Below, in pieces: positions 819-20,884 of a DNA stretch of 26,226 bases. Position numbers and translations under genes: made by a program. The stretch spans positions 1-26,226 of IMG/VR virus record IMGVR_UViG_3300037189_003735; one strand, 5' to 3'. The notes under the pieces were generated by a model. The model saw only the letters and a program-made list of their open reading frames with translations. It searched no databases and was not told the origin of the DNA. The first letter of the stretch is position 1; each line of letters starts with the position of its first letter. The DNA comes from a virus.

Positions 819-823
819 CCAGT

Positions 824-1021: not shown

Positions 1022-1085
1022 TAAGTACTTACAGAACGTTTAAACGATCTGCCTTTAAACGGCGGATAGTTCATTTTTTGTGAGG

Positions 1086-2768
1086 CTAAAACGCATCTTT
1101 ATTTTCGTAGTAAGTTCCAGTTGTCCTGTTGTACTTCAAAGTTGTTTCGCCTTGACCGCCAACCCAACGATAGCGACATTTCCATACCGCAATTTCAACC
1201 TCAGTCTTAGTCCGATGAACCGTAATACCGCAGTCCGCTTTAGCCCACCATGCCATCGAGCCTGAGATAGCCATACCGTCAGGACGTGGCAGATCCATGC
1301 CTGAGCGTGTGATCTTACTGGGGTGGGCAACGAACCATACGTGAACACCGAAAGCTTTAGCAAAGGTCTGCATTCTCGTGAGCATTGACGAAATAAATTC
1401 ATGTTCAGCTTGACCGCCCTTGTTCTCAATGTAGTTGTAAGGATCAATTACAAGACCCCTGATGCCTGTCCTTGCTACCGCTATCCTTGCCCGCTCAAGA
1501 ATTGAATCGATCGTAGATGGCTCTTGACCCTCAGAATCCAAGAACATAAAATGAGTTTCAACCCAAGTAAAGGCTTCATTCTTTTCAACTTCGGTCATGC
1601 GCTGAGTACCGTCAAAGAACCGCTTTTCTTTGTAAACCTCCATGAGTCTTGATATGTGAACCTCAGGCTGGTTTTCAAATGAGCAAAGGGCAAACTTCCA
1701 GTCGTGAGTACGAGCAAGGTTAACCATTAACTGATCAACAAAATTTGATTTACCGCTCGATGGATAGCCAGTAACGATAGTTAGCTGACCCTGAACGACT
1801 GTGTAAATCTCGTCCACATTAGCGTAACCCGTAGAAACACCCTTACCCGTGCCCTTCAACCACAAGTCGTTTAAACGCTCAGTAAACTTTGACGCAAAGG
1901 ATAATCCCGCTACTGGATATGGTTCTGCGTTGTCGATTATCTGTTTAACTGAATCCGCACCATCAGCAAGGAACGCTTCATTCAAGTCTTTAAAAGGAAA
2001 TTTAGCAATGCGACATTTGTCTTTGCCTATCCGTCTCGCAAGTTCTTCTGCTAATGCTTGACCCGCAGTATCTGTATCAGTTGCGATTGTTACATAAGGA
2101 ACGCTACTCAACATATCAAAGGCATTCCAAACAAAACTAAATCGCTTGTCTTCTGAGGCATCGACCTTGCCATCTGAAACTTTGATTGGCGCACCGCTTG
2201 GCACAGAGAGGACATTTACTAATCCGCATTCCATCAGTGTGAGCGCATCGATCTCACCCTCGACTATGATCACAGGCTTAGTCAGATCAATGTTATCAAT
2301 CCCAAAGAAATCGTGAGCACCGCCTGAGTCTTGAGTGAAGTCTTTCGATTCAATACTTCTGTACTTAGCTGAAATGAATTGTCCGTTTTTAAAATACGGA
2401 AAACCGATGCTGTCGGTAGTTCTTTTTAAACGCTGAAAATATTTTTCGGCGGGAAACAATTTCATGGAGTCCGCAGTTTGTTCTGATATACCCCTCGTTT
2501 TTAGAAAATCATAATGTTGTGATTGCAGTTTCGTTGATTCAAATTTTCTAATGGGTATCACATTTAACTCCGTTTTCTGTTGGGTTTTAAAAGGTACAAA
2601 ACCAGCAATGTTGCAATGATGACAGAAGTACCGCCAGCCATCGTTTGTACTGTGGATGGCTAAGTCTTTACTGCCATATTTCTTACGCTCGCTAGAGCAT
2701 GATGGGCACTGCACTCGCTTTGTATTGTCAATACGTAGTGATGAAACTAAATCCGCTACTGCGTTCAA
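1086..2768 (-). CDS. T7 gp4-like primase-helicase
   Basis: This 560-residue replicative protein has the full architecture of phage primase-helicases. A zinc ribbon lies at residues 21-52 (Cys21, Cys24, Cys49, Cys52). A TOPRIM primase domain follows, with VEGEIDAL at 169-176 (first E at 170) and Asp231/Asp233 in ATDTDTAG. A RecA-fold DnaB/gp4-type helicase then carries Walker A GYPSSGKS at 334-341, Walker B LVIDP at 439-443 and a sensor-like His482 in VAHPSK. It would synthesise RNA primers and unwind DNA at the fork. The start is a TTG, chosen because GAGGAGG sits 5 bases upstream (2780-2774) and no in-frame ATG precedes it. It lies 16 bases downstream of the HNH gene, in one operon. The length is close to that of T7 gp4 (566). 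Confidence 0.95.
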   Translation of the reverse strand: MNAVADLVSSLRIDNTKRVQCPSCSSERKKYGSKDLAIHSTNDGWRYFCHHCNIAGFVPFKTQQKTELNVIPIRKFESTKLQSQHYDFLKTRGISEQTADSMKLFPAEKYFQRLKRTTDSIGFPYFKNGQFISAKYRSIESKDFTQDSGGAHDFFGIDNIDLTKPVIIVEGEIDALTLMECGLVNVLSVPSGAPIKVSDGKVDASEDKRFSFVWNAFDMLSSVPYVTIATDTDTAGQALAEELARRIGKDKCRIAKFPFKDLNEAFLADGADSVKQIIDNAEPYPVAGLSFASKFTERLNDLWLKGTGKGVSTGYANVDEIYTVVQGQLTIVTGYPSSGKSNFVDQLMVNLARTHDWKFALCSFENQPEVHISRLMEVYKEKRFFDGTQRMTEVEKNEAFTWVETHFMFLDSEGQEPSTIDSILERARIAVARTGIRGLVIDPYNYIENKGGQAEHEFISSMLTRMQTFAKAFGVHVWFVAHPSKITRSGMDLPRPDGMAISGSMAWWAKADCGITVHRTKTEVEIAVWKCRYRWVGGQGETTLKYNRTTGTYYENKDAF

Positions 2769-2784
2769 ATGAGCCTCCTCATGG

Positions 2785-3060
2785 TTACTTCTTTGACTTG
2801 TTTACTTTAACCGTGTGATCACTATTGCGGGTGAACGAACGATTATTTTTTGGTGCTTTCAATTTTAAATTACTTGGTGCATTTGTCCCGCCTTTAGAGA
2901 GAGGAATCACATGATCGATGTCTTTACCAATTCTGTCAATGCCTTTTTTATCGACTGCGTATCGTGCTCTTGCACGAGCATTTCGATTGGGTTGTTCGCC
3001 ACGTTCTTGTTGTTGTTTGTATTCCTTTTCGTAAGGACGTTTTTTATTGACGTATGGCAT
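2785..3060 (-). CDS. HNH endonuclease-like protein (91 aa)
   Basis: This small basic protein has an HNH core in its second half: IDHVIPLSKGGTN (Asp48 and His50 at the first position, Asn60) followed by SNL and KNNRSF. The last canonical His is replaced by Asn, a common HNN variant. The N-terminal 40 residues are Arg/Lys/Gln-rich and probably bind DNA. AGGAG lies 4 bases before the ATG. It is the first gene of the unit containing the primase-helicase and follows the structured intergenic region. It could be a free-standing homing-type nuclease or a DNA-processing nuclease. No terminase or intron context is seen here to decide. Confidence 0.82.
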   Translation of the reverse strand: MPYVNKKRPYEKEYKQQQERGEQPNRNARARARYAVDKKGIDRIGKDIDHVIPLSKGGTNAPSNLKLKAPKNNRSFTRNSDHTVKVNKSKK

Positions 3061-3548
3061 AAGACTCCTGAATAGAAAAAACCGCTTTAGACTTTACTAA
3101 AGATACGTTAACACTTACTGATGTATTCGTAAGTATTACTAAGACTGCCCTTGGAGAGGGCAGACTCGCCTATAAACAAGCTTTAGCGAGTCTTCCTTTA
3201 CATACTCTGCCCCACGGTGTCGGTATGACTCGACAGACTTTTCATGCGAGGGACTCTGTCTTCGCCATCCCTTTCCGATTTCAAACGCACTAACCATAGT
3301 ATCGGCAATAAACTTTTCTGACCCTACCGTTTTTCATCGACGATCAGAAAGACTATGTTAAATCAAAAAAATAAAAACGCAAGTCAGGGTTACTACTCAC
3401 GAACGTAATGCGTACGAAAAAATAGGTACGCTCGTCGCAGCGTACTGCTTGTTTAAACAAATATTATTGACCCGGCTGCGGCGTGAGCTGCCAAAAAAAA
3501 AGAGAGTGCGTTTAAACACTCTCTAAAACCACAGAAGGAACTTCCATT
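3061..3548. other. Noncoding, hairpin-rich region (candidate structured RNA, regulatory leader or origin)
   Basis: No gene fits in these 488 bases. Inverted repeats are unusually dense. They are 3145-3151/3157-3163 (7 bp), 3162-3169/3186-3193 (8 bp), 3158-3164/3206-3212 (7 bp), 3187-3192/3227-3232 (6 bp), 3232-3237/3255-3260 (6 bp), 3291-3300/3352-3360 (9 bp with one bulged C) enclosing 3315-3321/3344-3350 (7 bp), 3426-3432/3439-3445 (7 bp), and the terminator at 3493-3524. Several are mutually exclusive. Two GTTTAAAC copies lie at 3451 and 3510. Read on the minus strand it would be a leader for the HNH and primase genes. On the plus strand it would precede the 22-codon ORF. I see no convincing promoter and recognise no known RNA class. 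Confidence 0.55.
3493..3524 (-). terminator. Rho-independent terminator for the minus-strand rusA transcript
   Basis: The stem AGAGAGTG (3501-3508) pairs with CACTCTCT (3517-3524) around an 8-base loop that contains most of a GTTTAAAC site. Eight A on the plus strand at 3493-3500 give a U-tract for minus-strand transcripts. It separates rusA from the HNH/primase unit downstream. Confidence 0.75.
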
Positions 3549-3617
3549 ATGGAACAAAACGTTCAGCTTGACAAACCTTTTTTTTATGTCTACTATTTAA
3601 GCGTTGATAGGAAATGA
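3549..3617 (+). CDS. Candidate 22-residue small protein or leader peptide
   Basis: An ATG at 3549, with AGAAGGAA ending 8 bases upstream, opens 22 codons and closes with TGA at 3615-3617. The peptide is charged at both ends with an aromatic centre (FFYVYYL) of only about seven residues. That is short for a membrane helix. A plus-strand terminator follows 29 bases later. The whole ORF lies antisense to the untranslated 3' part of the rusA transcript. The ribosome-binding site and dedicated terminator argue for translation, but 22 codons can arise by chance and no family is recognised. Confidence 0.4.
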   Translation: MEQNVQLDKPFFYVYYLSVDRK

Positions 3618-3646
3618 GCCTCCGATCGATAAGACCAGTAGGTCGG

Positions 3647-3674
3647 AAAGCCACCGTAAAACGTGGCTTTTTTT
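3647..3674 (+). terminator. Rho-independent terminator downstream of the 22-codon ORF
   Basis: AAAGCCAC (3647-3654) pairs with GTGGCTTT (3663-3670) around an 8-base loop, and T runs through 3674. The T-tract overlaps the rusA stop codon on the other strand. On the minus strand only three T follow the stem, so the plus orientation is favoured. Because no annotated large plus-strand gene precedes it, it implies an independent short plus-strand transcript. Confidence 0.75.
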
Positions 3675-4032
3675 ATTGTCTTTCCTGAATTTCAATCTCG
3701 CACCGTGGATTAGCCTTATCCACACCCATCCAATAGATATGCTTTTCTTTAACCTGACGGTCGTTCTCGTAAGCTACGTCCTGTAATAGATCCAAGATCA
3801 AGCTTTCATCCAAGTCAGGTCTGCGGGATGCATACCATATACGAATCGTTACCACCACATCCGTTGTAATTATTTGACTCGGAGCTGAGACTACTTGCTG
3901 TTTAAACGCTTTGGCATAGGCTAATGCCTTCTCTGACTTTATAAACATTGGCTTGCCTGAGATGTAAACCATTTTGCGGGAATTTGCTTTACTGGCTGGC
4001 TCGCCAAATATTTTTAAGGATAGTGTTTGCAT
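3673..4032 (-). CDS. rusA: RusA-family Holliday junction resolvase
   Basis: This is a 119-residue protein, the usual RusA size. It has the N-terminal GEPASKANSRK segment (residues 10-20) and the catalytic core RRPDLDE...ENDRQV. Asp73, Asp75 and Asp91 match the three metal-binding aspartates of Escherichia coli RusA. The family cuts four-way junctions symmetrically as a dimer, so it would resolve recombination and replication intermediates before packaging. It is transcribed divergently from the exonuclease-ERF operon across a 45-base gap. It starts at an ATG preceded by AT-rich sequence without a clear Shine-Dalgarno. One GTTTAAAC copy (3900-3907) lies in the coding sequence as Phe-Lys codons. 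Confidence 0.92.
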   Translation of the reverse strand: MQTLSLKIFGEPASKANSRKMVYISGKPMFIKSEKALAYAKAFKQQVVSAPSQIITTDVVVTIRIWYASRRPDLDESLILDLLQDVAYENDRQVKEKHIYWMGVDKANPRCEIEIQERQ

Positions 4033-4055
4033 TTATATTAAAGTAGTATTAGTAT
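4027..4055 (+). promoter_or_regulatory. Possible sigma70-type promoter for the recombination operon
   Basis: TTGCAT (4027-4032), a 17-base spacer and TAGTAT (4050-4055) sit just before the AGGAGG of the exonuclease gene, in a 45-base divergent gap with rusA. The match is weak (3/6 and 4/6), but the AT-rich gap must hold promoters for both directions. A matching minus-strand promoter is not clear. Confidence 0.3.
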
Positions 4056-4077
4056 TGTGGTTCGTATAGGAGGCTTA

Positions 4078-4971: not shown

Positions 4972-5212
4972 TTTGCAACAGGTAAGACTTAAATCGGCGG
5001 CTCGTGATAGTAACCATCCGCTTTTTGGATATGTTAACGAAGCACTTGACAATGTAATAGATAACATTAAACAAGAAAATCCCTTGGCTTTTCTGCCAAA
5101 AGATCAGCTAATGGACAGGGTATTTTTTGATGAGCCATTACAGAACATCCCGTTTAAGAATTTTGTTAAACGATATGTACCAAGAATATCAACCATGAGA
5201 AAAGAGAAATGA
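4961..5212 (+). CDS. Small hypothetical protein between exonuclease and ERF (83 aa)
   Basis: This 83-residue protein has a helical acidic first half and a basic C-terminus (FVKRYVPRISTMRKEK). It has a strong ribosome-binding site (GGAGG, about 9 bases upstream) inside the end of the exonuclease gene. Its TGA overlaps the ERF start as ATGA. I do not recognise the family. The sandwich position between exonuclease and annealing protein suggests an accessory role in recombination or DNA binding, which is inference from context only. Confidence 0.75.
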   Translation: MLTDLQQVRLKSAARDSNHPLFGYVNEALDNVIDNIKQENPLAFLPKDQLMDRVFFDEPLQNIPFKNFVKRYVPRISTMRKEK

Positions 5213-5838: not shown

Positions 5839-5841
5839 ATC

Positions 5842-6105
5842 ATGGCATATGAACAACGTCCAAATCAAGGAAGTCTTTTCCCAACGAAAATTAAAAAGAA
5901 TCCCAAGTCACCAGATTATTTTGGCGACATTCTTGTGGAGGTAAGCAGTTTAAACGTGGTAGATGGTATGGCAAAAATTAAACTTGGTGGTTGGAAAAAG
6001 AAAGTTGAAGCCACTGGCAATACATTCTTATCCTTACAAGTTGATACATGGAAGCCCGATGGTTCACCACAACCTGAGGTACAAGACGATGACATCGATT
6101 TTTAA
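5842..6105 (+). CDS. Small protein with acidic C-terminal tail, probable single-stranded DNA-binding role
   Basis: This 87-residue protein has a beta-rich core (YFGDILVEVSSLN, MAKIKLGGWKKK, NTFLSLQVDTWKP) and ends in DDDIDF. An acidic tail with a terminal Phe is typical of phage and bacterial single-stranded DNA-binding proteins, where it recruits partners. The core also resembles short DUF736-like phage proteins, so an SSB role is inference. It follows the ERF gene by 3 bases and has AAGGAGG upstream. One GTTTAAAC copy (5948-5955) falls in Leu-Asn codons. Confidence 0.65.
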   Translation: MAYEQRPNQGSLFPTKIKKNPKSPDYFGDILVEVSSLNVVDGMAKIKLGGWKKKVEATGNTFLSLQVDTWKPDGSPQPEVQDDDIDF

Positions 6106-6316: not shown

Positions 6317-6726
6317 ATGCTCTTCAATTTGAGGCTGTGAAGATTGCATTAAAGCAAGACCGTACTGGCTTTGTTTTAACGCTTAACATTCACCCCGATG
6401 AAATCCCACAGGAACTTATGCGGGACTTTGTCGGTGCTAGGTACGGTGTTGCAATGGTGCGGATTCAGGATAACGAAACCGTCACCAATTACGACAACCG
6501 AGTTAAGAGGGCTGGCATTCTTGGAAAAAGTAAACGCTTTCATTTGTGGTTACGTAAAGTAAAGGGCTTGGAAATTAACGGAGAAGATGATGCGGTTAAA
6601 GCTATCTACCGTGAATGTAGTATCCATTCCCGAACTGAACTCAATGGAAATCAAGACGCTCAAAATCAATTTGATGAAATGGTGGCAGATTATGAAAAAT
6701 GGGGCGAAGAAGATGAGCCGTTTTAA
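6313..6726 (+). CDS. Hypothetical phage protein (137 aa)
   Basis: This 137-residue protein has an N-terminal alpha/beta segment (FEAVKIALKQDRTGFVLTLN, then EIPQELMRDFVGARYGVAMV). A basic middle follows (NRVKRAGILGKSKRFHLWLRKVKG), and the tail is strongly acidic (EKWGEEDEPF). The pattern resembles small DNA-replication accessory proteins of phages, but I cannot name the family. It starts as ATGA on the previous stop and overlaps the next gene by 14 bases. Confidence 0.75.
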   Translation: MNALQFEAVKIALKQDRTGFVLTLNIHPDEIPQELMRDFVGARYGVAMVRIQDNETVTNYDNRVKRAGILGKSKRFHLWLRKVKGLEINGEDDAVKAIYRECSIHSRTELNGNQDAQNQFDEMVADYEKWGEEDEPF

Positions 6727-7018
6727 AAGTGTGGTTCCTCTCATGGTGTACATCGATCCAGTTGATAGAAACAAAATACAAACTTATGCAAAAAAGGAGG
6801 GTATCAATGTTAGTCAATTAGCAAGAGAAGCTTTTAAGATGCGTATGGCTGGAACTGATGATCCGTTTAACGGCGGCTTCAATCAAGGTTTAAACGAGGC
6901 GATGCGTATTGCACGTGATACGACAGGGGCAAAGATGATGTTCCCCTCAGGTAAATCATTTGCGGATTTGGTTTGCGATTCAATTGGAAAGTACTTGCGG
7001 GAGAAACCAAGTGAATGA
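6713..7018 (+). CDS. Ribbon-helix-helix-like DNA-binding protein (101 aa)
   Basis: I start at the ATG at 6713 (MSRFKSVVPLMVYIDPVDR); the longer frame from 6587 overlaps the previous gene needlessly. Residues 7-45 fit a ribbon-helix-helix fold: a short strand (PLMVYIDP), a helix (DRNKIQTYAKKEG), a turn and a second helix (NVSQLAREAFKMRMAG). RHH proteins bind operators as dimers, so this may be a regulator. The C-terminal half (MRIARDTTGAKM) is unassigned. A GTTTAAAC copy at 6888-6895 lies in Leu-Asn codons. No operator is identified. Confidence 0.65.
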   Translation: MSRFKSVVPLMVYIDPVDRNKIQTYAKKEGINVSQLAREAFKMRMAGTDDPFNGGFNQGLNEAMRIARDTTGAKMMFPSGKSFADLVCDSIGKYLREKPSE

Positions 7019-7859: not shown

Positions 7860-8797
7860 TTGAATTTGGCGATTGCAGAACCATCATGGCTCGTTGGGCT
7901 AAGGAGGGGGTAAAGGTGCAAACTTGCATCACATCACCTCCTTACTTTGGCTTGCGAGCCTATGGCGGTGGCGATCAAGAGATTGGAGTTGAGCACGACA
8001 TCAATGAATATGTAAACAATATTGTTTATGTTTTCAGTCATGTTTGGGATCTACTTAAAGATGATGGCACGGTTTGGCTTAATCTTGGGGACTCTTATGC
8101 GGGTAGCGGTAAGGGTAGGAACCCCGATGGTACGGTTCATGTCAGTGCTTTAATGGCTAAGCAAGGAACGTCCGCTGGCACGATTATGGGCAATGTTAAG
8201 GGTGGGCTAGTACCCGACGGATTAAAGCCTAAGGACTTGATTGGAGTACCTTGGCGGGTCGCTTTTGCCTTACAAGCCTTTGGCTGGTACTTACGTCAGG
8301 ACATCATTTGGCACAAGCCTAATCCTATGCCTGAGTCAGTTAAGGATCGTTGTACCAAAGCCCATGAGTACATTTTCCTACTAAGTAAAAACCCTAGGTA
8401 TTACTTTGATAACGAAGCGATTAAAGAGCCAGTTAAAGAAGACTGGGGTACACGTGATAGAACGGGCGGTAAGTACCACAACGAGGGTTCTGGGCTACAA
8501 CCCCACACGGGGCTGGAAAAGAGCTACGAGATGGCTAACAAACGTTCCGTATGGACTGTTAACACCAGTTCCTACAAGGGGGCGCACTTTGCCACCTTTC
8601 CGACCGACCTGATCGAGCCTTGCGTATTGGCTAGTACAAAGGCTGGGGATGTAGTGCTTGATCCTTTCATGGGAAGCGGAACTACCGCCGCAGTAGCAGA
8701 GCGTTTAAACAGGCTATACATTGGCTGCGAGCTGAATCCTGAATATGAAAAGTTGCAGAAGGAAAGACTTAAGCAACCATCACTGGAGTTGTTATGA
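7856..8797 (+). CDS. Beta-class site-specific DNA methyltransferase (orphan)
   Basis: This 313-residue protein has motif IV TSPPYFGLRAYG near residue 26 (SPPY 27-30) and motif I DPFMGSGTT at 269-277. That is the beta-class order, with the catalytic motif first and the AdoMet-binding motif last. SPPY is typical of N4-cytosine enzymes but also occurs in N6-adenine ones, so the target base is open. Lengths and motifs look intact. No restriction endonuclease is next to it, so it probably shields phage DNA from host restriction or marks it for regulation. Recognition sequence cannot be read from the protein. A GTTTAAAC copy lies at 8703-8710. Confidence 0.93.
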   Translation: MIEFGDCRTIMARWAKEGVKVQTCITSPPYFGLRAYGGGDQEIGVEHDINEYVNNIVYVFSHVWDLLKDDGTVWLNLGDSYAGSGKGRNPDGTVHVSALMAKQGTSAGTIMGNVKGGLVPDGLKPKDLIGVPWRVAFALQAFGWYLRQDIIWHKPNPMPESVKDRCTKAHEYIFLLSKNPRYYFDNEAIKEPVKEDWGTRDRTGGKYHNEGSGLQPHTGLEKSYEMANKRSVWTVNTSSYKGAHFATFPTDLIEPCVLASTKAGDVVLDPFMGSGTTAAVAERLNRLYIGCELNPEYEKLQKERLKQPSLELL

Positions 8798-9903: not shown

Positions 9904-10116
9904 ATGGATTATGCAGAATGGGTATCACGTAAGTACGGTTTAGGAAAAACTTACAGTAGTGTAGACGAAGCATTTAAAACAGCGGACTACGCAACTGGGC
10001 TGTGGAAATGCGAAACTGACTTTGATCGGTTTAAACGGGGTAATGGATTACCTGCAATGCTTGGATTTGCAGGAATGTTTGGATTATTAATTTATATTGC
10101 GTATGTATTTAAATGA
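9904..10116 (+). CDS. Small membrane protein with C-terminal helix (70 aa)
   Basis: This 70-residue protein has a soluble N-terminal 48 residues with one Cys and a hydrophobic C-terminal segment (MLGFAGMFGLLIYIAYVF), making it a tail-anchored single-pass membrane protein. It begins right after the previous stop with GGAGG 7 bases upstream, and its TGA overlaps the next ATG. A GTTTAAAC copy at 10029-10036 lies in Phe-Lys codons. No family recognised; holin-like behaviour is not excluded but only one membrane segment is present. Confidence 0.7.
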   Translation: MDYAEWVSRKYGLGKTYSSVDEAFKTADYATGLWKCETDFDRFKRGNGLPAMLGFAGMFGLLIYIAYVFK

Positions 10117-10319: not shown

Positions 10320-10329
10320 AGGGGTCAAA

Positions 10330-10521: not shown

Positions 10522-10522
10522 C

Positions 10523-10675
10523 ATGGACATTAAAATTACTGTAATACGGGAAAACAAAGACGGATCTGCTGATATAGCGTTGGAAATGGACAAAGAAGCA
10601 AAAGAATTGATTATTGCTGAGGGTTTTTTATATTTAATACGTAAATTTATAAAAGAAAATAAACCTAAAAAATGA
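10523..10675 (+). CDS. Small hypothetical protein (50 aa)
   Basis: This 50-codon frame fills the gap between two other genes. It starts 1 base after the previous stop, ends as ATGA on the next start, and looks protein-like: MDIKITVIRENKDGSADIAL, then an amphipathic helix and a Lys-rich tail. The composition suggests a strand-strand-helix mini-domain. Its fit in the operon is the main support. Confidence 0.7.
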   Translation: MDIKITVIRENKDGSADIALEMDKEAKELIIAEGFLYLIRKFIKENKPKK

Positions 10676-10881
10676 CATGGAACTATCGAGTAGTTGAAAT
10701 GATTAATGGCGATGAGTCTTGGTTAGAGATTTGTGAGGTCTACTACGAGGGCGATAAGCCAATTGGTTATTGCACCGTTAGCGTTGGAGAAGACAGCATT
10801 GAATCTTTAAAAAGTACGCTGCAACGTATGACAGACTGTTTAAACAAGCCAACATTAAAGAAGGAAGATTTTAATGAGTAG
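10672..10881 (+). CDS. Small phage protein of WNYRVVE type (69 aa)
   Basis: The 69-residue protein opens with MTWNYRVVEMINGDESWLEI, then EVYYEGDKPIGYCTVSV and a helix ending near KPTLKKEDF. This fold-like pattern (WNYRVV...EVYYE...L..M) recurs in small phage proteins of unknown function. It overlaps the next gene by 8 bases. A GTTTAAAC copy (10838-10845) lies in Leu-Asn codons. Confidence 0.75.
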   Translation: MTWNYRVVEMINGDESWLEICEVYYEGDKPIGYCTVSVGEDSIESLKSTLQRMTDCLNKPTLKKEDFNE

Positions 10882-11044
10882 CTGGTTAATTTGGATAATC
10901 GGGATTGTTTACTTGGTTGTAGCGGTTGACCTGTTTAGAAAAGGTCAGGTAGGGCTAGGCTTAGCTTTTATTGGTTACTTCATTGGTAACTGCGGACTAG
11001 GTCTTGCGGCTAGAGTTCCAGCGGGTCAAATCCTAGTTCAGTAG
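10874..11044 (+). CDS. Small two-helix membrane protein (56 aa)
   Basis: An ATG at 10874, overlapping the previous stop and preceded by AAGGAAG, opens 56 codons. The protein has two hydrophobic segments (WLIWIIGIVYLVVAV and LGLAFIGYFIGNCGLGLA) around a short basic turn (FRKGQ). Similar short two-helix proteins occur in phages without a known role; a small holin or membrane modulator is possible. It is the last gene of the plus operon. Its 3' end overlaps the converging SprT-like gene by 35 bases. No terminator is visible after it. Confidence 0.72.
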   Translation: MSSWLIWIIGIVYLVVAVDLFRKGQVGLGLAFIGYFIGNCGLGLAARVPAGQILVQ

Positions 11045-11363
11045 CAATCAGGTGTGCCCTACGTCTAAACGTAGCGTCATGCTTTGTCCATGCGTCAGTT
11101 ACTGTTCCCGCACGACTCATGTGAATAATCTCATGAGCCACGGTTCTAATGACCGTATCAAGATGTCCACATTTTGCTTTTGAAATAGTCAGGGTATGTA
11201 CGTAGTCTTCATCATCGTCATACTGATACGTACCCATCGCATCAATTTCATTGGTAACAAGAAACTTAATTTCTTCTGGGGCGGGTAGAGTCCAGCCTGT
11301 AAAAGGCTTGCATTGGCATAACATTAAGTAAATGCCCTCAAGGGCTTTTGGCGTTAACTTCAT
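11010..11363 (-). CDS. SprT-like zinc metallopeptidase-type protein (117 aa)
   Basis: Residues 73-82 read RTVAHEIIHM, an HExxH zincin site (His77, Glu78, His81), with a further conserved-type His95 in AWTKHDATFRRRA. Size and pattern match SprT-like domains, related to the DNA-protein crosslink protease Spartan and to small phage metalloproteins. A Cys pair near CQCKP and one at CGH may help fold. It may cut proteins on DNA or another target; that is family-based inference. It overlaps the metallophosphoesterase stop as ATGA, so the two are coupled on the minus strand. The C-terminus overlaps the converging plus-strand gene. Confidence 0.78.
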   Translation of the reverse strand: MKLTPKALEGIYLMLCQCKPFTGWTLPAPEEIKFLVTNEIDAMGTYQYDDDEDYVHTLTISKAKCGHLDTVIRTVAHEIIHMSRAGTVTDAWTKHDATFRRRAHLIATELGFDPLEL

Positions 11364-12334
11364 ATTCTGTTTACACAGCCCCTAAATTCAAATTCATCCT
11401 CACCAGAAACCATAACAAGCTCTGGCATTAGCATCTTGCCATTTTCCCATGAAAGTAAAACAAATCCTGAGCGCCAGTCGGTTGGGGCATCTTCGATGTA
11501 ATGTATGAAAGCACTGGAATGCGGATCAGCCAGACAGCCCGTTTGAACGCCCCAGCGGGTTCCGTTGTAATCCGTTATCGGGAAGGCGGAAAGATTGTGT
11601 GTATGACCTGTAATCATATTAGTTCCGCTGTTTAAACTGTTCGATCTTGTAGCTCCAAAGCCGCCTTTCCATCGATGTTTAATACAGGTATCCTCGTTAA
11701 CCCAAAAGCTCCAACAGGACTTCCATAAAGGAAAGTGATCTTTAAGGGAAAACCCTAATACGCCCTCGTAGGTTGTAATTCCAGCGTTTGACAGAAAGGT
11801 CTCAAAACGAGCGTCATGGTTGCCCAACGTCCAGATAAGCTCAGCATTACCCGCAAGCTTTTCAATGCCTCCCATGAACTCCTGACAAGCCTCAAGCTCT
11901 TCCTTGACGGTAGGGGTTTGAGACCAGTTAATTCTTGGATGCCGACTAGCCTGACTGCCATCAAAGATATCACCGTTGGCTACAATAGCCTTGATCTCGC
12001 CTTTAAATTCTTTAAGCATAAGCAGTAAGGCTTTGTAGGCGGTAGTGACCTCATTGGGCTGGAAGTGGGCATCGCTAAAAACAATGACCCGACCCTTTTC
12101 AATATTAATTCCCCGCCTGACATTGCCTTCTACTTGCTCTATTTTTGGAATTTGCGGACCAGTTCTTTGAGGGTTTGTTAGTACCAAATCCATCTGATAT
12201 TTAAACTCAATAGACCGTCTACGGTGATGCACCGATCTGACCGCCATTTTAAGTTTTTGCGCCACGAGTGTGGGGCTTCCCATCTCATTCCAACAACTGA
12301 TAAACTGCTCATCCGTTACAGGGTAATTTGACAT
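11360..12334 (-). CDS. Calcineurin-like metallophosphoesterase with N-terminal HTH-like region (324 aa)
   Basis: The catalytic domain has all family motifs: FSDAHF (Asp88, His90), ANGDIFD (Asp122), LGNHDARF (Asn172, His173, Asp174), His220 in IKHRWKGG, and TGHTHN (His244, His246). The N-terminal 45 residues (SPTLVAQKLKMAVRSVHHRR) look like a helix-turn-helix, suggesting DNA binding fused to a phosphoesterase. The phage family could act on DNA ends, RNA or cyclic nucleotides; the substrate is unknown. A GTTTAAAC copy lies at 11630-11637 in Leu-Asn codons. AAGG lies 9 bases before the ATG. It is divergent from the DUF3310 gene and coupled to the SprT-like gene. Confidence 0.9.
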   Translation of the reverse strand: MSNYPVTDEQFISCWNEMGSPTLVAQKLKMAVRSVHHRRRSIEFKYQMDLVLTNPQRTGPQIPKIEQVEGNVRRGINIEKGRVIVFSDAHFQPNEVTTAYKALLLMLKEFKGEIKAIVANGDIFDGSQASRHPRINWSQTPTVKEELEACQEFMGGIEKLAGNAELIWTLGNHDARFETFLSNAGITTYEGVLGFSLKDHFPLWKSCWSFWVNEDTCIKHRWKGGFGATRSNSLNSGTNMITGHTHNLSAFPITDYNGTRWGVQTGCLADPHSSAFIHYIEDAPTDWRSGFVLLSWENGKMLMPELVMVSGEDEFEFRGCVNRI

Positions 12335-12355: not shown

Positions 12356-12409
12356 TTTATGATATAAATCAACACATTAAACCATACTTTTGTGAAAGGT
12401 TAAAGAAAA

Positions 12410-12989: not shown

Positions 12990-12991
12990 AC

Positions 12992-15900
12992 TTACTCACG
13001 AGATTTCCGCAGAATCCTTACACGTTCCGTTAGCTTTAATTGAGCCTCGTGAATTTTATCGAGAGCTACCCGCTTGTCATCCGCTGACATCGTCTTGGAA
13101 GAATTTATCATCTTGCTCGCTTGATTTAGTTGCTTCATGTTCTTATCCAAAACACCGATATAACCTTTTAGTGCATACAATTGCTTATTTTCTGTTAGAT
13201 AATCTTTAAGATCATCCGTGTTTCCAGTACGCTGTAATGTATTGACTGTGTTTACTACGGTATCTACTTCTTCTTTTAAGTCGTAGTACGCAGAAATAGT
13301 ACCGCTATCACCAGCAAAGAATCGCTTGATAACAGGTAACTGCTCCATACGCTTAGCGGCTTTAACAGAATCGCCCTCGCCTGTTAATGCGGCATCCATC
13401 AGCATCATTGCGTATGTGCCCATCGTGCCAGTGTAGCCACGAATAAAGTTATCAATCTTTTGTGGCGAGTAATCTATTTCACGACCTATTTTCTTGGCAA
13501 CTTCAGATGTACCAGCGGTGTATTGGAATTTAGGCGCAAGACCTTCAACACCTTTACCGATGATTGGCTCGCCAGTAAAGAATGAATGGTTAACTGTATT
13601 TTCAACGACTGGCAGTATAGCCTGTGGAATAGGATTGAACGACAAGGTAGACATTGCATTTCTCATTAATGATTCCCGTAAGTCTTTGCCTGTGTCGGTT
13701 CCAAAAGAGTATTCAAGAATACGTTCAGGAATAACTTTAAAGACTACACCAAGCTCGAAAGGAATTGGGAAACGGAAAGGCTTACCGTTAATTTCCATTG
13801 CTGGAATGATCCAGTAATTATCACGTTCTTCTTTGCTTAACTTTTTGTATTCATCATCGTCTGACATTGCCGCCCAGTACATAACTGAAAGACCAAGCAA
13901 AACTGACGAGCGGAAGATAAATGCTTTCTGTATCTGCTCTTTGTTTTCCATTGCCGCTTTACCCCAACCTGTGCGGTACAAAACGTCAAGACCTTGAACA
14001 CGAGCATTAAAGAATGGAATCATTGCGGACAGGATTCTAATCATTGCTGAATTACCTTTGCGTGAAAAGTTCATAACTTCCATCGCTTGATAAAAAGCTT
14101 CTGCTTCCGAGCCAGTTCTCTCTAAAGTTCTCTTATAAACTTCAGCACGGGTCGCCATGTCTGAGGCGTGTGAGCCATGCTCAAGCATATCCCAAAACGC
14201 AGTGATTGGAAGTAAAGCCTTTTCCTTAGCCGTACGTGTTCCCGTACGCTTACGTAGTTCTTTTTCAACCTGTTCCGCAGTAGACTTCACGTCGCCAGCA
14301 AAGTCATAACCCGTTAGTCCAGCTTTAGCTAAAGCATAAGCTTCAGGGGAATGCCCAGCCAAAGTCTTACTAAATTGTTTAACCGAATCCACCAGTGGTG
14401 TCATGCCAGTGCCGCTGGTAATCCAAGCTTGCATTGAATCCCGACCTAAGTTAGCCAGCATAAATCCGGGATCTTTGGTCACAAAGTTACGCAATAAGTT
14501 AGCGGGAGCGGATAAGAAATCCATAAACGGTAACTGCGGGAGGTTTAAACCCTTTAATGATTCGACAAGCAGCGGGTCATCTACACGGTAATACTTGGTT
14601 TCACCGCCTTCTTTAATAGTTACGATGTCTGTACCAACCGTACCCGTTTGAACTTGTTCACCAAGACCTACTTCGACTACGTCTCGAATAACTCGACGGG
14701 CGGCTTCGTTCTTCATGCCAGCCTCAATAGCGGCACGAGCGTTGCGGACAATGGTTTCCATAAAATCGTCCAAGGGAGCTTCAGAACTTTTAAGCTTCTT
14801 GGGTTTAGCTACTCCAGCAATTGGCGAGAAGACCTTCGGACCCGCTGTTTTCTCACCGTCAAGCTGACGATAGAATGGAATGTAGTCAAAGTTTTGAGTC
14901 CAGATCTTAGCTTCTTCAGCAGAGATGACACCCGTGTCCATCATGTACTTAACCAGACCTTGATTATAAAGCTGGTAGTCATCAAAGACCTGTTTAAACT
15001 CAGGGAACTGCTTAGCTAAGGCTTCGCCATCTTGAATGTCGTCCTTGGTAAAATTTTTCTCACGACCTTCTGCATCTAAGCGTTTACCCCGACGAGTGCC
15101 AGCATAGAACTGGAACAGTTGATAAATAGTAGGATCACCGTATTTTGATAGTGGCTCAAGAATTGGGATCAGCCCTTTGACCTTACCATCCAAGTCGCTA
15201 ACATAGGTATAACCCTTATCAAATACTGGAACACCATCACGGAATGAAGAAGCGGCTACACCAGCGGCTCTATCAGATTGAAGTGCGGCGGCAAGCGCAG
15301 AAACTTCAGCCAGCAATCGATCTGCACCAAATTTTTCAGCAATTAAATGAGTTAGTCTTTCAATTGACTCATATTTATTAATAAAGGCTTGACGAAAGCG
15401 AGTCATTGCTGTTGGTGACATAGCATCAACAATACGCTCAGGATAACCTTTTGTTACTCGCTGAGTCGTGGTAGCTTCAACACGACTTAATATGCGTGGG
15501 TCAACCTGTGAGCGCAAAGATAGTTTGCCTTGTGGCGCTTCCTGATCAACCATATTAGGGGTTATGACACGACGCTTCTTAACTGTAGTCGGAACAGCTT
15601 TTGGTGCAACTCGACCATTTTCAGCAATAACAGCAATGCCTCTTGCCTTGGTTTGAAAAGTTTGATTTTCCGCTGGTTGAACATTCCTACCAGACCAGAC
15701 TGGATTACCGTACCTACGGTTAGCGTTAGGATCGTTATACATCGTAGCAATTTCATAATGATCCGCTTTTGGTTTGACAAACATCAGGTCATTTGAAAGT
15801 GAATCATATAAGACGTACTTGCCCTCAACCTTATAAATGCGGTTGAATTTCTTACCAAGATCCATTAAATGAACGGCTACGCTTTCTAATAAATCCTGAG

Positions 15901-18900
15901 CAGAATCTTTTGGTTTGCGGGATGGATCTTTAAGCATCCGATCAAGAATGTGATTAGCACCATAGCCTGTGTCATCGACATTACTATGTGTGCCAACAGG
16001 CAATCGGATTGGGTTTTTAGGAATAGACGCATTAAACGGAATCTGGGCTAAATCACCGCTGTCGTTTAAATGCTCATTCGGTACAAGGAACGTTTCAGGC
16101 GCAATACCATTTAACGCTACTGCATACTTAACATCAGACTCAGTTAATCCGTCTGCTCTGATTGAGAATTTTGGTTCTTGTCCCGATTCTCTAACTGTTC
16201 GTCTAATTTCTGCGACAAAGGATTCACGGAGACTATCAAGCCCTCCTTGTAAATCGGGTCGTTCGGGTCTGCTTGTTTGAATCCCAGTGACAATGCTAGT
16301 TCCACTAGGCTCTGTTTTCCAGTCATGATAGTTGTACTCCGATTTTGCCCCAAAAAAATCTTGGGATTGTATTGTAGAAACCTTACTAATTTCACCGCTT
16401 ATTTCAGCAAGTCCTTTTATAAAATCTTCATCAGAAGCTAAAAATGGTTTGCCATCCTCGCCACGATAATTAATTATAACTAATTCATCGCCTTTTATTT
16501 TGGTAAATCCAGCATCCTCACCAAATTTAGCCTGAAAAATATCTAAAATCTTCTTTTGTTGTGTTGGCGTAAGGTTAGCTGTGTCAAATTTAAACTTGTA
16601 TCCCAGTTGAGCAGTGTCAATTAATTTTGGATCCGCCCTGAATAATGGCGTAGCATCCTGTTTAAACACGTAGGACATGGCGTTAGCAAGATCTGCCGCA
16701 TCTTTTTGTGCTATTTCAGCGTCATCATCAATTACCTGAACAATTAAGTTTGGATTAACTTTGTTGGCATATGCCCCAGATCCAACCGTTACCCGAATCT
16801 TGCTTTCAATTCCAAGAAAGTTGGCAATGTTTTTAATTGTTTCTGAATTAGCAATTTGTTTTGTTAATTTTTCTTTGTAACTAAAATTCATTGTTTCGGC
16901 TTGAGACATCTCCGTTTGAACAGACGGAATAACTTCGCCAGTAATGTTTTGAGTACGAGCTTTAATATCACCAGAAGTTTCACGCATTGCTTCAGTAACA
17001 GGAAGCTTGCTAACTTCTTTTTTCATGAAATGAGAATAGTCTGCTACCGCTCTTTCAAAAGCAAACTCTCTTAAATCTGTATCTGACAAACCTTTTTTTA
17101 ATCCTCTTGCACGGTAATCTTCAAAAATACCTTTGGCTTTTTGCGTTACCCAAGCCGCAGCTTGTATTTGTCTAGGTAATAACCCTACCTTGGATGAAAG
17201 CAAGCGCACCATATTCTCAGCCAATTCATACTGGGCATCAGTAGGCGCATCTTTATCAAAGAGCAGTCTGGTCATGTGTAAATCAATAGTTGATCTACCC
17301 GTGTCCTTGCCTTCCATTGCTTCCATTAAGTTTGTATAGAACGTATTGGTTTTGCGACCGCCCCAATCTTCACCAAAATTTAAAAGCGCATCAACCTTTT
17401 TGTTTGTATCCCCAGTGCCAACCTTAATAGGCTTGCCTTCAGCAAACTGTTTCCATGCATTAATGGTTTTGGTAAAATTAGCACCAACTTCAGTTCCAGC
17501 CGAGGTGATGGCAATGATCTGAAAGAATTTTTCAGCCAAAATTGGATCGCCATTAAAGGCTTCGAGGACTGCTTTAGCAGAACGTTCATACCAGTCTTTT
17601 CCTTCTAAGCCCTGAGCGGTAAAGTCTTGAAGTTTTTTAACTGCCTTCTTAACATCTGCCAGCGTTTCACCAGACTTCATGCCAGCAACACGATTGCCAA
17701 CTTTTTTAATTAAGCCTTCCATTTCACTTGCATAGATTCTGGCTTGCTGAACCGTTAATGGAGTAACCTCTTTTGGTTTCTGAGCAAACTTAACTTCAGT
17801 ATCTTTAGGCTCAACCGCTAAAGTCTTAATGCCGCCTTCTTCAATATTGCTAAAGATAGCATCGGAAGTTTTAAAGCCAAGCTTAGCAAATCCATTCCGC
17901 AGCGCTTCAAACATCCTGTTTAAACGCATCCAGATATTGCCAATCATGCCGGGTTGCAGGTTGCCAACTTTAAAGTGTTTAAACGCTTCGGCAATTGCTT
18001 CTTCCATCATGTCGTCTTGATTAAGACCCATTGCCTTATAGCGGTCGTACAACGAAACACCTTCTGCACTTTTCACATCTTTTAAGTATTTCTGAATCCA
18101 GTCTGATTTGGCTTTGTTTTCCAGAACCTGCCATTCTTGCTTAGTAAAAGCGCCCAGTTCTTTCAAGGCATGGATGCTTTCATGCTTTAGCGTACCCATT
18201 GGATCTTTGGAATCCATCGCAATGGTCATAATCTGTTGAACCCACTGTCCGTCTGCCCGCCCGTCCTGAATGCTGTTCACAATCCGTAAGCCTACGTTCT
18301 CCAGTCCATACCGTTTAAGGGCTGGTAAAAGGCTTAAACGAAGCTGAGCGAGCTTATCGTGGGTTTCCTTGGTGTATATGCCTAAAGCCTCTAAACGCTC
18401 TGTAGCGCCTTTTAAGCCCTTTGTAGTCGTTACGGCTATGCCACGCTCTTCCTCAATGGACTGGCGGTCATTTAGCTCTTTCTGGGCTAAATCCGCATAG
18501 CGTTTAACTTTGCCTGTCTGTTTCTGGGCTGACGCAGAATCTATGATTTGCTGTAATGTCTCATCGTTTAAACGGCTTATACCAAACTCATCCGCCTTTT
18601 CTTCGCTATCAAAGCGGGCTACGGGTTTACCCTGTTCGTAGAAAGTAAACTTATCCTCGGTAACTGCTTTATTGCCAAAAGGATTAACCGATACAGGGGC
18701 TGTAAAGCTTTCAATTTGTTGCTGTTTTTCGGCTATTAAAGCTTTGGCTTTTTCGTCCTTAGCCATTGCATCGCCTTGAGCAATAAAGAACGCTGAAGTC
18801 TTGCCTTGACCTAAGGCTTTCATTTCTTCCAGCTTAGCTGCACGTCTGAGCGTAGCGGCTTCAGAATTAGCAATGTCCTGTCGAAGCTGGGTAATGGTCT

Positions 18901-20884
18901 TTTCGTTTAAGTCCTGAGCCAAGATTGCTTTTTGAGTAGCTTCTTCAGCGGTATTGGCAACGTCTAATTCTTGAGCACCCCGACGAATCTGGTAGCCCTC
19001 GGGTCCTTCAGACTGTTTAAACGTCTCCTTGCGGATATCCATGCCACCCGGCAGCCCCTCAGTCTCGGTGGTTGGTTTAAACGTTTGAATGTTAGTTAGT
19101 ACGCCGTTTACATTGCGGGTTTCGTTACGGCTTTCAATCAGCCCTTCTTTAAGAGCACGGTCTAAAAGACGTTGTTGGTCTTCTTCTTTTAATAGTCCGC
19201 TGTATTTTTCAATCTGCTTGAGGACGGATTCACGCCCATTGGCAACATTACCAACTTCCTTAAATTCTTTAGCCAAGCCGCTAACGGTATCTTGGTATTG
19301 ACTTTCTGTGTAGTTCCTTGCGTTACTGCCAGATTCTAAAATGCGGAAATCGGAACCAACAGGAACCTTATCTAAGGCTTGTTTAACGGCTAGTCTTTGT
19401 GGCTCAGCCATACCCAAAAGGTTGTCAACGCCTGTGGTTCTTTTTAGGAAATCTTTAAAGCCTTGAGTGCCAGTATCAATACCACGGTTTCTAGCCTGTA
19501 CTTCTAAAATCTTGGGCGAGAATGTATCGCCATCTTGATAGCCTGTACGCTCTGCAATTAAACGGTTAAGAACACCCTTTTGATCTTTTGCTTCTTCTGA
19601 AGTAAAGACATCAGCCAAGTCTTCTATTGAAAACTCACGACCAATTCTGGGCTTGCCAATATCTTTTCTGCGTTTGTTAATGATGGCTACTTCTTGCGGA
19701 CTCATAACCTTAGTGCTGAAATTGCCCAACGGGTTAATTAATGGGTCTTCTTGAATGGGGGCTTCGTATTTGGTTGTTGGTGCTGGTAATGCGGCAATGC
19801 CAACTTGTTTCCCTGTAACGTCAGTTGTGGTTCCAGAAGGCACACCTAGCATTTCTGCTGTTTGTTTTAACTGCGCTTGTTCTGCTAAGTAAGCATCCCG
19901 TTGAGCCTTTTGCCGCTCAACAATTTCTTTTTTCTGCTCTTCTTTTTCAAGTTCCTTGCCTTTGGCAATGGTTTGGCTACGTTGAACATAAGTTCCAACA
20001 GGGGCTAAGCCAAGACCTAAAGCTGCACCGCCAATGTAGTTGTCAAAATATTCACTGCGAGCTTGTTCATCAGTAAGGTTTAAACCAGCCTGAAGTCTTT
20101 CAAAGAACTGTTGACCAGCCTCAGTAGCGCCTTCAATATTAGCTAGTTTTGCACCTGATACACCATAAGATAAGGCAGTTTTAGCAATACCTTCTTCCGC
20201 AATTTTTCTAGCTATTTCTGGGGTAATTGGTTTTCCTGCTGCGCCAAATATCTTGCCAACTGCTGGAATCATCCGCAGTGAAACTACATCTAATGCGGCT
20301 TGCGGTAGGGCGGCTGCACCAGCAGCACCAAGATTGGTTTCTGCCAAGCGCAATTTGGGATCTTCTTGCATTTGACGGGATAGGTTAGAGCCCGTAAATT
20401 GACCCAAAGAAGCTAGTCCAGCACCACCAACGCCAAGAGCTGTTCCAAGCGTTGTAAGACCACCCAAGACGGGAGCAGCCGCAACCGTTGCGGGCAAAGC
20501 TAAAGTAGCCGCACCAGCCGCCAACGGAGCCGCCATATAAGGAAGCGAACCGCCAACAGTTTCTTTAAATTTTTGAAAGGGAGATTCAGTCCAACCAGCA
20601 GTGGTTGGTTTAAACATCTTCTCAGCTAATATGTCTTTTTCGGCTTTATAACGCTCAGCCTCTTCTACATCCATTAGTCCAGTACGACCAGCTAATGCGG
20701 CGATGTCGCCTTTTAAGCGTTCTTTTCCAGCGCTAAATGCGCCAGTAAAACCAGTGTCGGCTTTAATTTCTTTTGGACGATACATTTTCTGAGCATAAAA
20801 AATGATCTGCTCATCAGTAGCACCTTCCGGTCCTTCTACTTCCAGAATTTTTCCGTCTGGAGCGGTTACCTCATAAAGTGGCAT
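12992..20884 (-). CDS. Giant polyvalent virion-associated protein (2630 aa) with zincin motif and LPD38-like C-terminal region
   Basis: The N-terminus (MPLYEVTAPDGKILEVEGPE) is typical of large internal or ejected phage proteins. Residues about 105-175 are Ala/Gly-rich and hydrophobic and could insert in membrane; about 300-350 are coiled coil. A zinc protease-like site HESIH lies at 901-905, with a downstream EEAIAEAF at 961-968 that could supply the third ligand. A helical domain with DLHMTRLLF lies near 1200. A segment with GYGANHIL near 1640, then YKVEGKYVLYDS, resembles nuclease-like (BECR-type) domains, tentatively. The last third, including DPGFMLANLGRDSMQ near 2140 and AMIPFFNARVQGLDVLYR near 2295, matches large polyvalent LPD38-type domains. 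It is likely packaged and ejected. The ATG lies 5 bases after the previous gene without a clear Shine-Dalgarno. Ten GTTTAAAC copies lie inside it. Confidence 0.88.
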   Translation of the reverse strand: MPLYEVTAPDGKILEVEGPEGATDEQIIFYAQKMYRPKEIKADTGFTGAFSAGKERLKGDIAALAGRTGLMDVEEAERYKAEKDILAEKMFKPTTAGWTESPFQKFKETVGGSLPYMAAPLAAGAATLALPATVAAAPVLGGLTTLGTALGVGGAGLASLGQFTGSNLSRQMQEDPKLRLAETNLGAAGAAALPQAALDVVSLRMIPAVGKIFGAAGKPITPEIARKIAEEGIAKTALSYGVSGAKLANIEGATEAGQQFFERLQAGLNLTDEQARSEYFDNYIGGAALGLGLAPVGTYVQRSQTIAKGKELEKEEQKKEIVERQKAQRDAYLAEQAQLKQTAEMLGVPSGTTTDVTGKQVGIAALPAPTTKYEAPIQEDPLINPLGNFSTKVMSPQEVAIINKRRKDIGKPRIGREFSIEDLADVFTSEEAKDQKGVLNRLIAERTGYQDGDTFSPKILEVQARNRGIDTGTQGFKDFLKRTTGVDNLLGMAEPQRLAVKQALDKVPVGSDFRILESGSNARNYTESQYQDTVSGLAKEFKEVGNVANGRESVLKQIEKYSGLLKEEDQQRLLDRALKEGLIESRNETRNVNGVLTNIQTFKPTTETEGLPGGMDIRKETFKQSEGPEGYQIRRGAQELDVANTAEEATQKAILAQDLNEKTITQLRQDIANSEAATLRRAAKLEEMKALGQGKTSAFFIAQGDAMAKDEKAKALIAEKQQQIESFTAPVSVNPFGNKAVTEDKFTFYEQGKPVARFDSEEKADEFGISRLNDETLQQIIDSASAQKQTGKVKRYADLAQKELNDRQSIEEERGIAVTTTKGLKGATERLEALGIYTKETHDKLAQLRLSLLPALKRYGLENVGLRIVNSIQDGRADGQWVQQIMTIAMDSKDPMGTLKHESIHALKELGAFTKQEWQVLENKAKSDWIQKYLKDVKSAEGVSLYDRYKAMGLNQDDMMEEAIAEAFKHFKVGNLQPGMIGNIWMRLNRMFEALRNGFAKLGFKTSDAIFSNIEEGGIKTLAVEPKDTEVKFAQKPKEVTPLTVQQARIYASEMEGLIKKVGNRVAGMKSGETLADVKKAVKKLQDFTAQGLEGKDWYERSAKAVLEAFNGDPILAEKFFQIIAITSAGTEVGANFTKTINAWKQFAEGKPIKVGTGDTNKKVDALLNFGEDWGGRKTNTFYTNLMEAMEGKDTGRSTIDLHMTRLLFDKDAPTDAQYELAENMVRLLSSKVGLLPRQIQAAAWVTQKAKGIFEDYRARGLKKGLSDTDLREFAFERAVADYSHFMKKEVSKLPVTEAMRETSGDIKARTQNITGEVIPSVQTEMSQAETMNFSYKEKLTKQIANSETIKNIANFLGIESKIRVTVGSGAYANKVNPNLIVQVIDDDAEIAQKDAADLANAMSYVFKQDATPLFRADPKLIDTAQLGYKFKFDTANLTPTQQKKILDIFQAKFGEDAGFTKIKGDELVIINYRGEDGKPFLASDEDFIKGLAEISGEISKVSTIQSQDFFGAKSEYNYHDWKTEPSGTSIVTGIQTSRPERPDLQGGLDSLRESFVAEIRRTVRESGQEPKFSIRADGLTESDVKYAVALNGIAPETFLVPNEHLNDSGDLAQIPFNASIPKNPIRLPVGTHSNVDDTGYGANHILDRMLKDPSRKPKDSAQDLLESVAVHLMDLGKKFNRIYKVEGKYVLYDSLSNDLMFVKPKADHYEIATMYNDPNANRRYGNPVWSGRNVQPAENQTFQTKARGIAVIAENGRVAPKAVPTTVKKRRVITPNMVDQEAPQGKLSLRSQVDPRILSRVEATTTQRVTKGYPERIVDAMSPTAMTRFRQAFINKYESIERLTHLIAEKFGADRLLAEVSALAAALQSDRAAGVAASSFRDGVPVFDKGYTYVSDLDGKVKGLIPILEPLSKYGDPTIYQLFQFYAGTRRGKRLDAEGREKNFTKDDIQDGEALAKQFPEFKQVFDDYQLYNQGLVKYMMDTGVISAEEAKIWTQNFDYIPFYRQLDGEKTAGPKVFSPIAGVAKPKKLKSSEAPLDDFMETIVRNARAAIEAGMKNEAARRVIRDVVEVGLGEQVQTGTVGTDIVTIKEGGETKYYRVDDPLLVESLKGLNLPQLPFMDFLSAPANLLRNFVTKDPGFMLANLGRDSMQAWITSGTGMTPLVDSVKQFSKTLAGHSPEAYALAKAGLTGYDFAGDVKSTAEQVEKELRKRTGTRTAKEKALLPITAFWDMLEHGSHASDMATRAEVYKRTLERTGSEAEAFYQAMEVMNFSRKGNSAMIRILSAMIPFFNARVQGLDVLYRTGWGKAAMENKEQIQKAFIFRSSVLLGLSVMYWAAMSDDDEYKKLSKEERDNYWIIPAMEINGKPFRFPIPFELGVVFKVIPERILEYSFGTDTGKDLRESLMRNAMSTLSFNPIPQAILPVVENTVNHSFFTGEPIIGKGVEGLAPKFQYTAGTSEVAKKIGREIDYSPQKIDNFIRGYTGTMGTYAMMLMDAALTGEGDSVKAAKRMEQLPVIKRFFAGDSGTISAYYDLKEEVDTVVNTVNTLQRTGNTDDLKDYLTENKQLYALKGYIGVLDKNMKQLNQASKMINSSKTMSADDKRVALDKIHEAQLKLTERVRILRKSRE

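Follow-up and report, generated by a model that had tools for sequence, protein, structure and literature searches.

A highly iterated phage octamer as the probable recognition site of a SprT-like zinc ribbon protein family

In mycobacteriophage L5, the immunity repressor of the cluster A phages works through an operator and stoperators, tens of short, dispersed sites which are found at promoters, at the gene of the regulator itself and in small gaps between genes, and which co-vary with the regulator. In cluster K mycobacteriophages, the Start-Associated Sequences (SAS) repeat a short asymmetric word, GGGATAGGAGCCC, at gene starts only; the factor was unknown when they were described. HIP1 of cyanobacteria is a highly iterated 8-bp palindrome, which occurs about once per kb as a chromosomal signature. 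Here, we describe a highly iterated octamer, GTTTAAAC, in a 26,226-nucleotide stretch of viral DNA (IMG/VR record IMGVR_UViG_3300037189_003735, positions 1 to 26,226; hereafter the window), which is the complete record, yet probably itself a fragment. We consider it likely that the octamer and its variant GTGTAAAC, jointly GTKTAAAC, form the recognition site of a phage SprT-like KQ[STG]TR protein, in what would be a genome-wide expression switch similar to that of L5.

Enrichment and conservation of the octamer

The window holds 21 copies of GTTTAAAC, its most frequent 8-mer, between positions 1038 and 20615, a density of about one per kb; from 20616 to 26226 there are none. Dinucleotide shuffles gave a mean of 0.92 copies (standard deviation 1.0, maximum 5; 0 of 100 reached 21) and a third-order Markov model of the window predicts 1.27, in agreement with the initial annotation of this DNA, which had set 21 copies against fewer than one expected. 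Copies occur in genes of either strand as well as in noncoding DNA (1038, 3451 and 3510), and within genes the word is read in both stop-free frames, as Leu-Asn (xGT TTA AAC) and as Phe-Lys (xxG TTT AAA C), all of which that annotation had also described.

Eighty viral contigs with a 63-82% identical primase/helicase were fetched blind to GTTTAAAC. The octamer is enriched in 77 of them and is the top palindrome in nearly all (1163 copies in the 1.23 Mb of all 80); in whole records of enriched relatives, its copies number 12-44 and those of the reversed control word 0-4. Relatives with conserved genes and no enrichment, which the annotation had named as the finding that would count against it, number three, and these are without one specific gene module (see below). 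Across the relatives, the consensus extends to Y-GTTTAAAC-R. Pairs of sites spaced 50-80 bp apart occur at about four times the baseline, a solid excess; helical phasing (~10 bp) of the paired sites is only suggestive, with a best period of 8.7-9.9. In the longer relatives, sites are dense in the early/replication region and in the giant gene, and sparser in the structural module past the giant gene.

In pairwise DNA alignments at 60-80% identity, GTTTAAAC is unchanged at 67-85% of sites, compared with 6-19% for 8-mers of the same composition. In the window lineage, Leu-Asn is encoded as TTA-AAC 303 times, where 97 are expected from codon use with the amino acids fixed. This positional conservation and codon excess argue that the site is kept as DNA, position by position, by purifying selection, and strongly support the earlier proposal that selection acts on the DNA and not on a peptide. 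Selection on a DNA word is here seen to reshape the choice of codons, and even of amino acids, across whole phage genomes.

The initial annotation had further drawn a parallel with HIP1 and suggested a host-like signature, a methylation mark or a protein binding site. In length, palindromy and density, GTTTAAAC does resemble HIP1. Candidate hosts, however, are not enriched. A scan of GTDB genomes with the primase yielded two betaproteobacterial metagenome-assembled genomes (MAGs) that hold relatives, with totals of GTTTAAAC against the control word of 90 to 103 and 89 to 67. Nor do chromosomes show enrichment in the order to which the relative-bearing MAG belongs: across 300 of its genomes, the word is usually rarer than its reversed control. 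In the Umea MAG, the densest clusters among those fetched are phage contigs, with structural genes free of sites on one side and an early region holding 26 copies in 8.3 kb. Since the candidate host genomes are unenriched, the excess is a phage trait and not a host signature. The word also varies with a phage protein, across phages of several bacterial phyla. As for methylation, the window methyltransferase family is patchy, being present in only 5 of 15 clustered genomes, and a PmeI-type restriction-modification mark is on this ground not supported. Overall, we regard the chance of a HIP1-type signature or a methylation mark as practically negligible, whereas the other parts of the annotation's interpretation, DNA-level selection and a protein binding site, are strongly supported.

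The SprT-like family and its co-occurrence with the site

The search for a partner of the octamer used proteins clustered from 15 genomes. A family of ~196 amino acids (aa) is found in all enriched near-complete genomes, the distant Umea contigs included, and is missing from the non-enriched genome G026. It is SprT-like, with a HExxH zincin domain and a C-terminal zinc ribbon that begins KQ[STG]TR (KQxTR), and 163 named-phage records carry it. The SprT-like profile PF10263 matches the Venkman protein with an E-value of 1.3e-9 and other members more weakly, under the Pfam cut-off; a PDB sequence search found no relative. An AlphaFold (AF2) model of a window-lineage copy, built from an alignment without the named-phage rows, has a predicted local distance difference test score (pLDDT) of 94. 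Its top fold match in the PDB is a metallopeptidase (E 0.016, probability 0.96), with CapP a weak second, and its C-terminal part resembles small zinc ribbons, again in weak matches. HExxH is conserved in the family outside the actinophages and some further branches: some array-bearing members have kept the C-terminal domain and lost HExxH, and in four dense actinophage records this domain alone is left, in open reading frames (ORFs) of 77-101 aa. Because these four records retain that domain alone, it appears to be the common unit of the family.

The gene belongs to a conserved four-gene operon (L109:7479-11506, with homologs in 11 genomes) that encodes the SprT-like protein, a MoxR/CobS-like AAA+ protein, a HELGH metallopeptidase and a VWA protein. 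Different genes on the Umea phage contig appear to be a divergent form of this operon. Contigs 8, 27, 42 and 133 of a betaproteobacterial MAG (G031) are binned phage contigs, and the SprT-like gene is found on 27, 42 and 133. The MoxR/HExxH/VWA genes were rejected as the binder, as they are not common to unrelated array phages. Nor was the ribbon-helix-helix (MetJ/Arc-like) protein of the window retained as the binder: its family occurs in G026, which is not enriched, and was not found in G010 or in the phage contigs from Umea.

Viral contigs were scanned twice, without bias, for triple sites, where by estimate fewer than one match is expected by chance. Among the matches listed was a second lineage, actinophages that carry WhiB-like genes and reach 46 sites per 10 kb. 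Most array phages have 20-54 sites per record, and the family is encoded by 25 of the 27 long records that reach 20 sites or more, compared with none of the six with 4-12. The prospective set was assembled in the opposite direction, by three viral scans with SprT-like queries, that is by protein alone, and comprises 104 contigs; the Yang query used the peptide pattern KQGTRM, which favours QxTR-positive proteins but is neutral as to the DNA word. Of all 8-mers, GTTTAAAC is the most over-represented in these contigs (494 against 13.1 expected), and the next independent word is GTGTAAAC (277 against 17). Enrichment is seen in 75 of the 83 QxTR-positive contigs of 6 kb or longer in the prospective set (p<0.001; 683 sites against 25) and in 50 of 51 in the primase set. 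A DnaA-box-like word, TATCCACA, is also over-represented in the SprT-selected loci L392-L495 (114 against 16.8 expected).

Among named phages, Venkman (Methylophilales) has 34 copies of GTTTAAAC and Dinoroseobacter R5C has 17 at 61% GC, where 0.04 are expected; Mica has 7, Persinger 4 and Arya 7 (0.98 expected). Several GC-rich phages that bear the family have none, and three QxTR-positive named phages without GTTTAAAC seemed to break the view that the family is sufficient. This was resolved by the GTGTAAAC variant, whose users among the apparent exceptions are phages of Arthrobacter, Microbacterium and Streptomyces. There are 20 copies of GTGTAAAC in Yang (0.05 expected), 22 in Zeta1847 (0.08), 39 in UNTPL (0.06), 13 in 4A (0.2), 14 in Percival (0.02) and 27 in Powerpuff (0.1). 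On the + strand, GTTTACAC and GTGTAAAC stand at 20:7 in Powerpuff, 14:6 in Yang, 16:6 in Zeta1847, 16:23 in UNTPL and 8:6 in Percival. Homologs without QxTR (Dismas, CN2, PSA20, L406, L410 and L411) are accompanied by neither GTTTAAAC nor GTGTAAAC. Residue covariation between T-type and G-type sites yields leads only, confounded by descent.

The array phages fall into groups that are unrelated to each other, namely the window lineage, the Umea contig, Venkman, R5C, the Arya/Mica/Persinger group, Percival and the actinophages. Compared pairwise, representatives of these groups share 0-6 other genes, and none besides the SprT-like family is common to all. This bears on a scenario in which the site is owned by another DNA-binding factor of host or phage and the SprT-like protein acts on that factor, as ImmA does on ImmR or CapP on CapH. 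Metallopeptidases that cleave separate repressors exist, and CapP is among the fold matches above. However, no other gene unites the groups, the smallest unit that is conserved is the zinc ribbon and not the protease, and the T to G change in the site follows the protein variants, both site variants being found in actinobacterial phages. We consider a separate factor very unlikely.

Natural losses point to the same protein. The three poorly enriched primase relatives (L051, L069 and L074) have no SprT-AAA+ module, with a ~50-aa remnant alone kept in L069 and L074. On the primase tree these are three separate losses, each with a lost or decayed array. L069, at 88% DNA identity to SprT-positive phages, has retained 2 of 6 sites, close to what neutral decay would leave, compared with 10 of 10 and 7 of 7 in its SprT-positive kin.

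A candidate genome-wide switch and the layout of the window

Promoter elements were identified by eye. In Powerpuff (L499), five near-identical promoters (34931, 35656, 41032, 41449 and 41702) consist of a -35 element TTGCG(C/T)AAG and a -10 element TAGACT followed directly by GTTTACAC, and one of them drives the SprT-like gene. Of the 27 sites in this phage, 13 are intergenic, in a genome with 8% noncoding DNA. Other sites lie within the -35/-10 spacer in Percival and Zeta1847, and after the -10, about at the start point, in Mica and Arya. In Venkman the site fills the gap between Shine-Dalgarno and start codon (AGGAGT-GTTTAAAC-ATG), and some sites at gene junctions contain the stop codon. 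A site is located at most 100 bp upstream of the SprT-like gene in 60 of 155 cases, where 16.6 are expected.

Our observations comprise enrichment, positional conservation, co-occurrence, joint loss, protein-motif covariation and promoter positions; from these, we infer binding, repression, roadblock action and a role in lysogeny by comparative genomics. In the model that we propose, the C-terminal zinc ribbon of the SprT-like protein would bind dozens of sites on its own phage genome. Binding at promoters, its own included, would block initiation, further binding would occur where genes adjoin and between Shine-Dalgarno and ATG, and binding inside early genes would act as a roadblock to elongation. 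The outcome would be a genome-wide switch working like the L5 operator/stoperator system; the site layout is that of an L5-like system, in which a repressor that regulates its own gene has operators at promoters and numerous sites of the roadblock type. In the window lineage, the gene is part of a SprT/MoxR-type AAA+/HExxH/VWA operon, which is predicted just beyond the left end of the contig.

In temperate members (Arthrobacter cluster AZ and Microbacterium cluster EH), the SprT-like protein would be the immunity repressor, and in integrase-less members a temporal regulator of early genes. Experiments have shown that Powerpuff, of cluster AZ, is temperate and immune, yet its repressor could not be identified (PMC8758107). 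We tentatively raise the possibility that the KQxTR SprT-like protein is this missing AZ/EH immunity repressor and the founding member of a novel class of master regulators in phages. In this class, a sequence-specific zinc ribbon would be fused to a metalloprotease that possibly inactivates itself in response to a DNA signal, much as LexA and CI do by self-cleavage, in unrelated phages of Proteobacteria and Actinobacteria whose entire genomes have been rewritten with its operator.

The site positions also bear on what else the protein or the sites might do. A SprT-like protease tethered at GTKTAAAC, with its MoxR/VWA partners, might strip phage DNA, as it enters or replicates, of nucleoid and restriction proteins of the host or of cross-linked proteins. 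SPRTN is a DNA-dependent protease that cleaves DNA-bound proteins (PMC5127644), and the SprT-like fold, the HExxH in most members, the AAA+ and VWA genes in the same operon and the scatter of sites through coding DNA would suit such a role. Clearing does not, however, predict the concentration of sites on promoters and Shine-Dalgarno/ATG spacers, and dense actinophage arrays survive the loss of HExxH or of the whole protease domain, so that we think it unlikely. Sites at which a virion protein packages or condenses DNA could be dispersed in the same way, and the 50-80-bp pairs could suit bridging or looping, but the density peaks near the SprT-like gene and drops in the structural region, and sites stand at promoters; this we judge highly improbable.

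Several observations weigh against the proposed switch. About 80% of the window-lineage sites are intragenic, an unusual position for plain operators. Of the array phages tested, most are without a tyrosine or serine integrase, so lysogeny is not the general role, and a role in the lytic cycle is likely in general. The array of L069 decays despite a C-terminal remnant with QTTR, whereas the stand-alone domains of actinophages keep dense arrays, and the sufficiency of the domain therefore varies by lineage. The SprT losses in the window lineage include the AAA+/HExxH/VWA genes together. Two fragments are rich in sites with no SprT-like gene detected, G336 (L360 and L361; 57% GC), with 37 copies of GTTTAAAC against 0.11 expected, and G341, with 23 sites. 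Finally, related contigs are not independent, and the counts given here overstate the sample size.

The sites of the window are collected in Table 1. In the closest relative (L005), the SprT-like gene is found 4.4 kb past the primase gene on its 3' side; by this inference, the window's own copy should sit ~3.4 kb outside the left end. The window encodes a second small SprT-like zincin (HEIIH; 11010-11363, minus strand), which has no zinc ribbon and is found in few relatives. The terminator on the minus strand reads AGAGAGTG-TTTAAACG-CACTCTCT followed by a T run. The ribbon-helix-helix protein of the window (plus strand) is an apparent one, called by eye with no Pfam match above cut-off; it has a conserved C-terminal MMFPSGKSFG and hydrophobic residues at the strand positions that usually contact DNA.

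Table 1. Copies of GTTTAAAC in the window and the predicted place of the cognate gene
Feature	Position	Context
Predicted cognate gene (SprT-like, KQxTR zinc ribbon), absent from contig	left edge 1..1085	position from closest relative L005
GTTTAAAC site	1038..1045	noncoding, past 3' end of primase gene
GTTTAAAC site	1869..1876	within primase/helicase, Leu-Asn; retained in 63/77 aligned relatives
GTTTAAAC site	3451..3458	intergenic; first of pair, spacing 59 bp
GTTTAAAC site	3510..3517	intergenic; second of 59-bp pair; in loop of intrinsic terminator 3501-3524 (-)
GTTTAAAC site	3900..3907	within gene 3673-4032 (-); retained in 45/45 aligned relatives
GTTTAAAC site	5948..5955	within gene 5842-6105
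GTTTAAAC site	6888..6895	within ribbon-helix-helix gene (ORF 6587-7018); retained in 12/15
GTTTAAAC site	8703..8710	within methyltransferase gene; retained in 16/17
GTTTAAAC site	10029..10036	within gene 9904-10116
GTTTAAAC site	10838..10845	within gene 10672-10881
GTTTAAAC site	11630..11637	within metallophosphoesterase gene
GTTTAAAC site	14543..14550	within giant gene 12992-20884
GTTTAAAC site	14992..14999	within giant gene 12992-20884
GTTTAAAC site	16660..16667	within giant gene 12992-20884
GTTTAAAC site	17918..17925	within giant gene 12992-20884; paired with 17977, 59 bp
GTTTAAAC site	17977..17984	within giant gene 12992-20884; partner of 17918
GTTTAAAC site	18566..18573	within giant gene 12992-20884
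GTTTAAAC site	19015..19022	within giant gene 12992-20884; paired with 19075, 60 bp
GTTTAAAC site	19075..19082	within giant gene 12992-20884; partner of 19015
GTTTAAAC site	20078..20085	within giant gene 12992-20884
GTTTAAAC site	20608..20615	close to 5' end of giant gene 12992-20884

Comparison with known systems

Literature searches for GTTTAAAC or GTGTAAAC together with phage returned nothing relevant, and as far as the literature searched shows, the KQxTR DNA-binding family has not been described previously. Taken together, we propose a probable recognition site for this family in more than 200 phage contigs and a likely function for the gene annotated 'SprT-like protease' in ~160 named phage records. 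For the published work on temperate cluster AZ, in which the repressor was not found, the family offers a specific candidate.

Unlike HIP1, GTTTAAAC is found in phages only and tracks a phage gene. With the SAS, the sites share the repetition of a short word at gene starts, but GTKTAAAC is a different word from GGGATAGGAGCCC, which stands immediately upstream of starts in cluster K, and its sites are often intragenic. SprT/Spartan (SPRTN) resembles the phage family as a DNA-bound protease with a SprT-like zincin fold and a small C-terminal metal-binding region. To our knowledge, no sequence-specific site is known for the SprT/Spartan crosslink proteases; in the phage family, protease-dead and protease-less forms keep their arrays, and KQxTR marks the array-bearing members.

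The L5 system has 20-30 or more dispersed sites per genome, a number that most array phages reach (27 in Powerpuff), and the operators that it has at lytic promoters and at the repressor gene itself have counterparts here at the level of sequence. L5 sites, however, are 13-bp, asymmetric, mostly in one orientation and bound by a monomeric repressor of another family. The sites described here are 8-bp, palindromic (GTTTAAAC) or near-palindromic, with GTTTACAC and GTGTAAAC in mixed orientations, and many are intragenic; the protein linked to them is a SprT-like zinc ribbon protein, in phages of both Proteobacteria and Actinobacteria.

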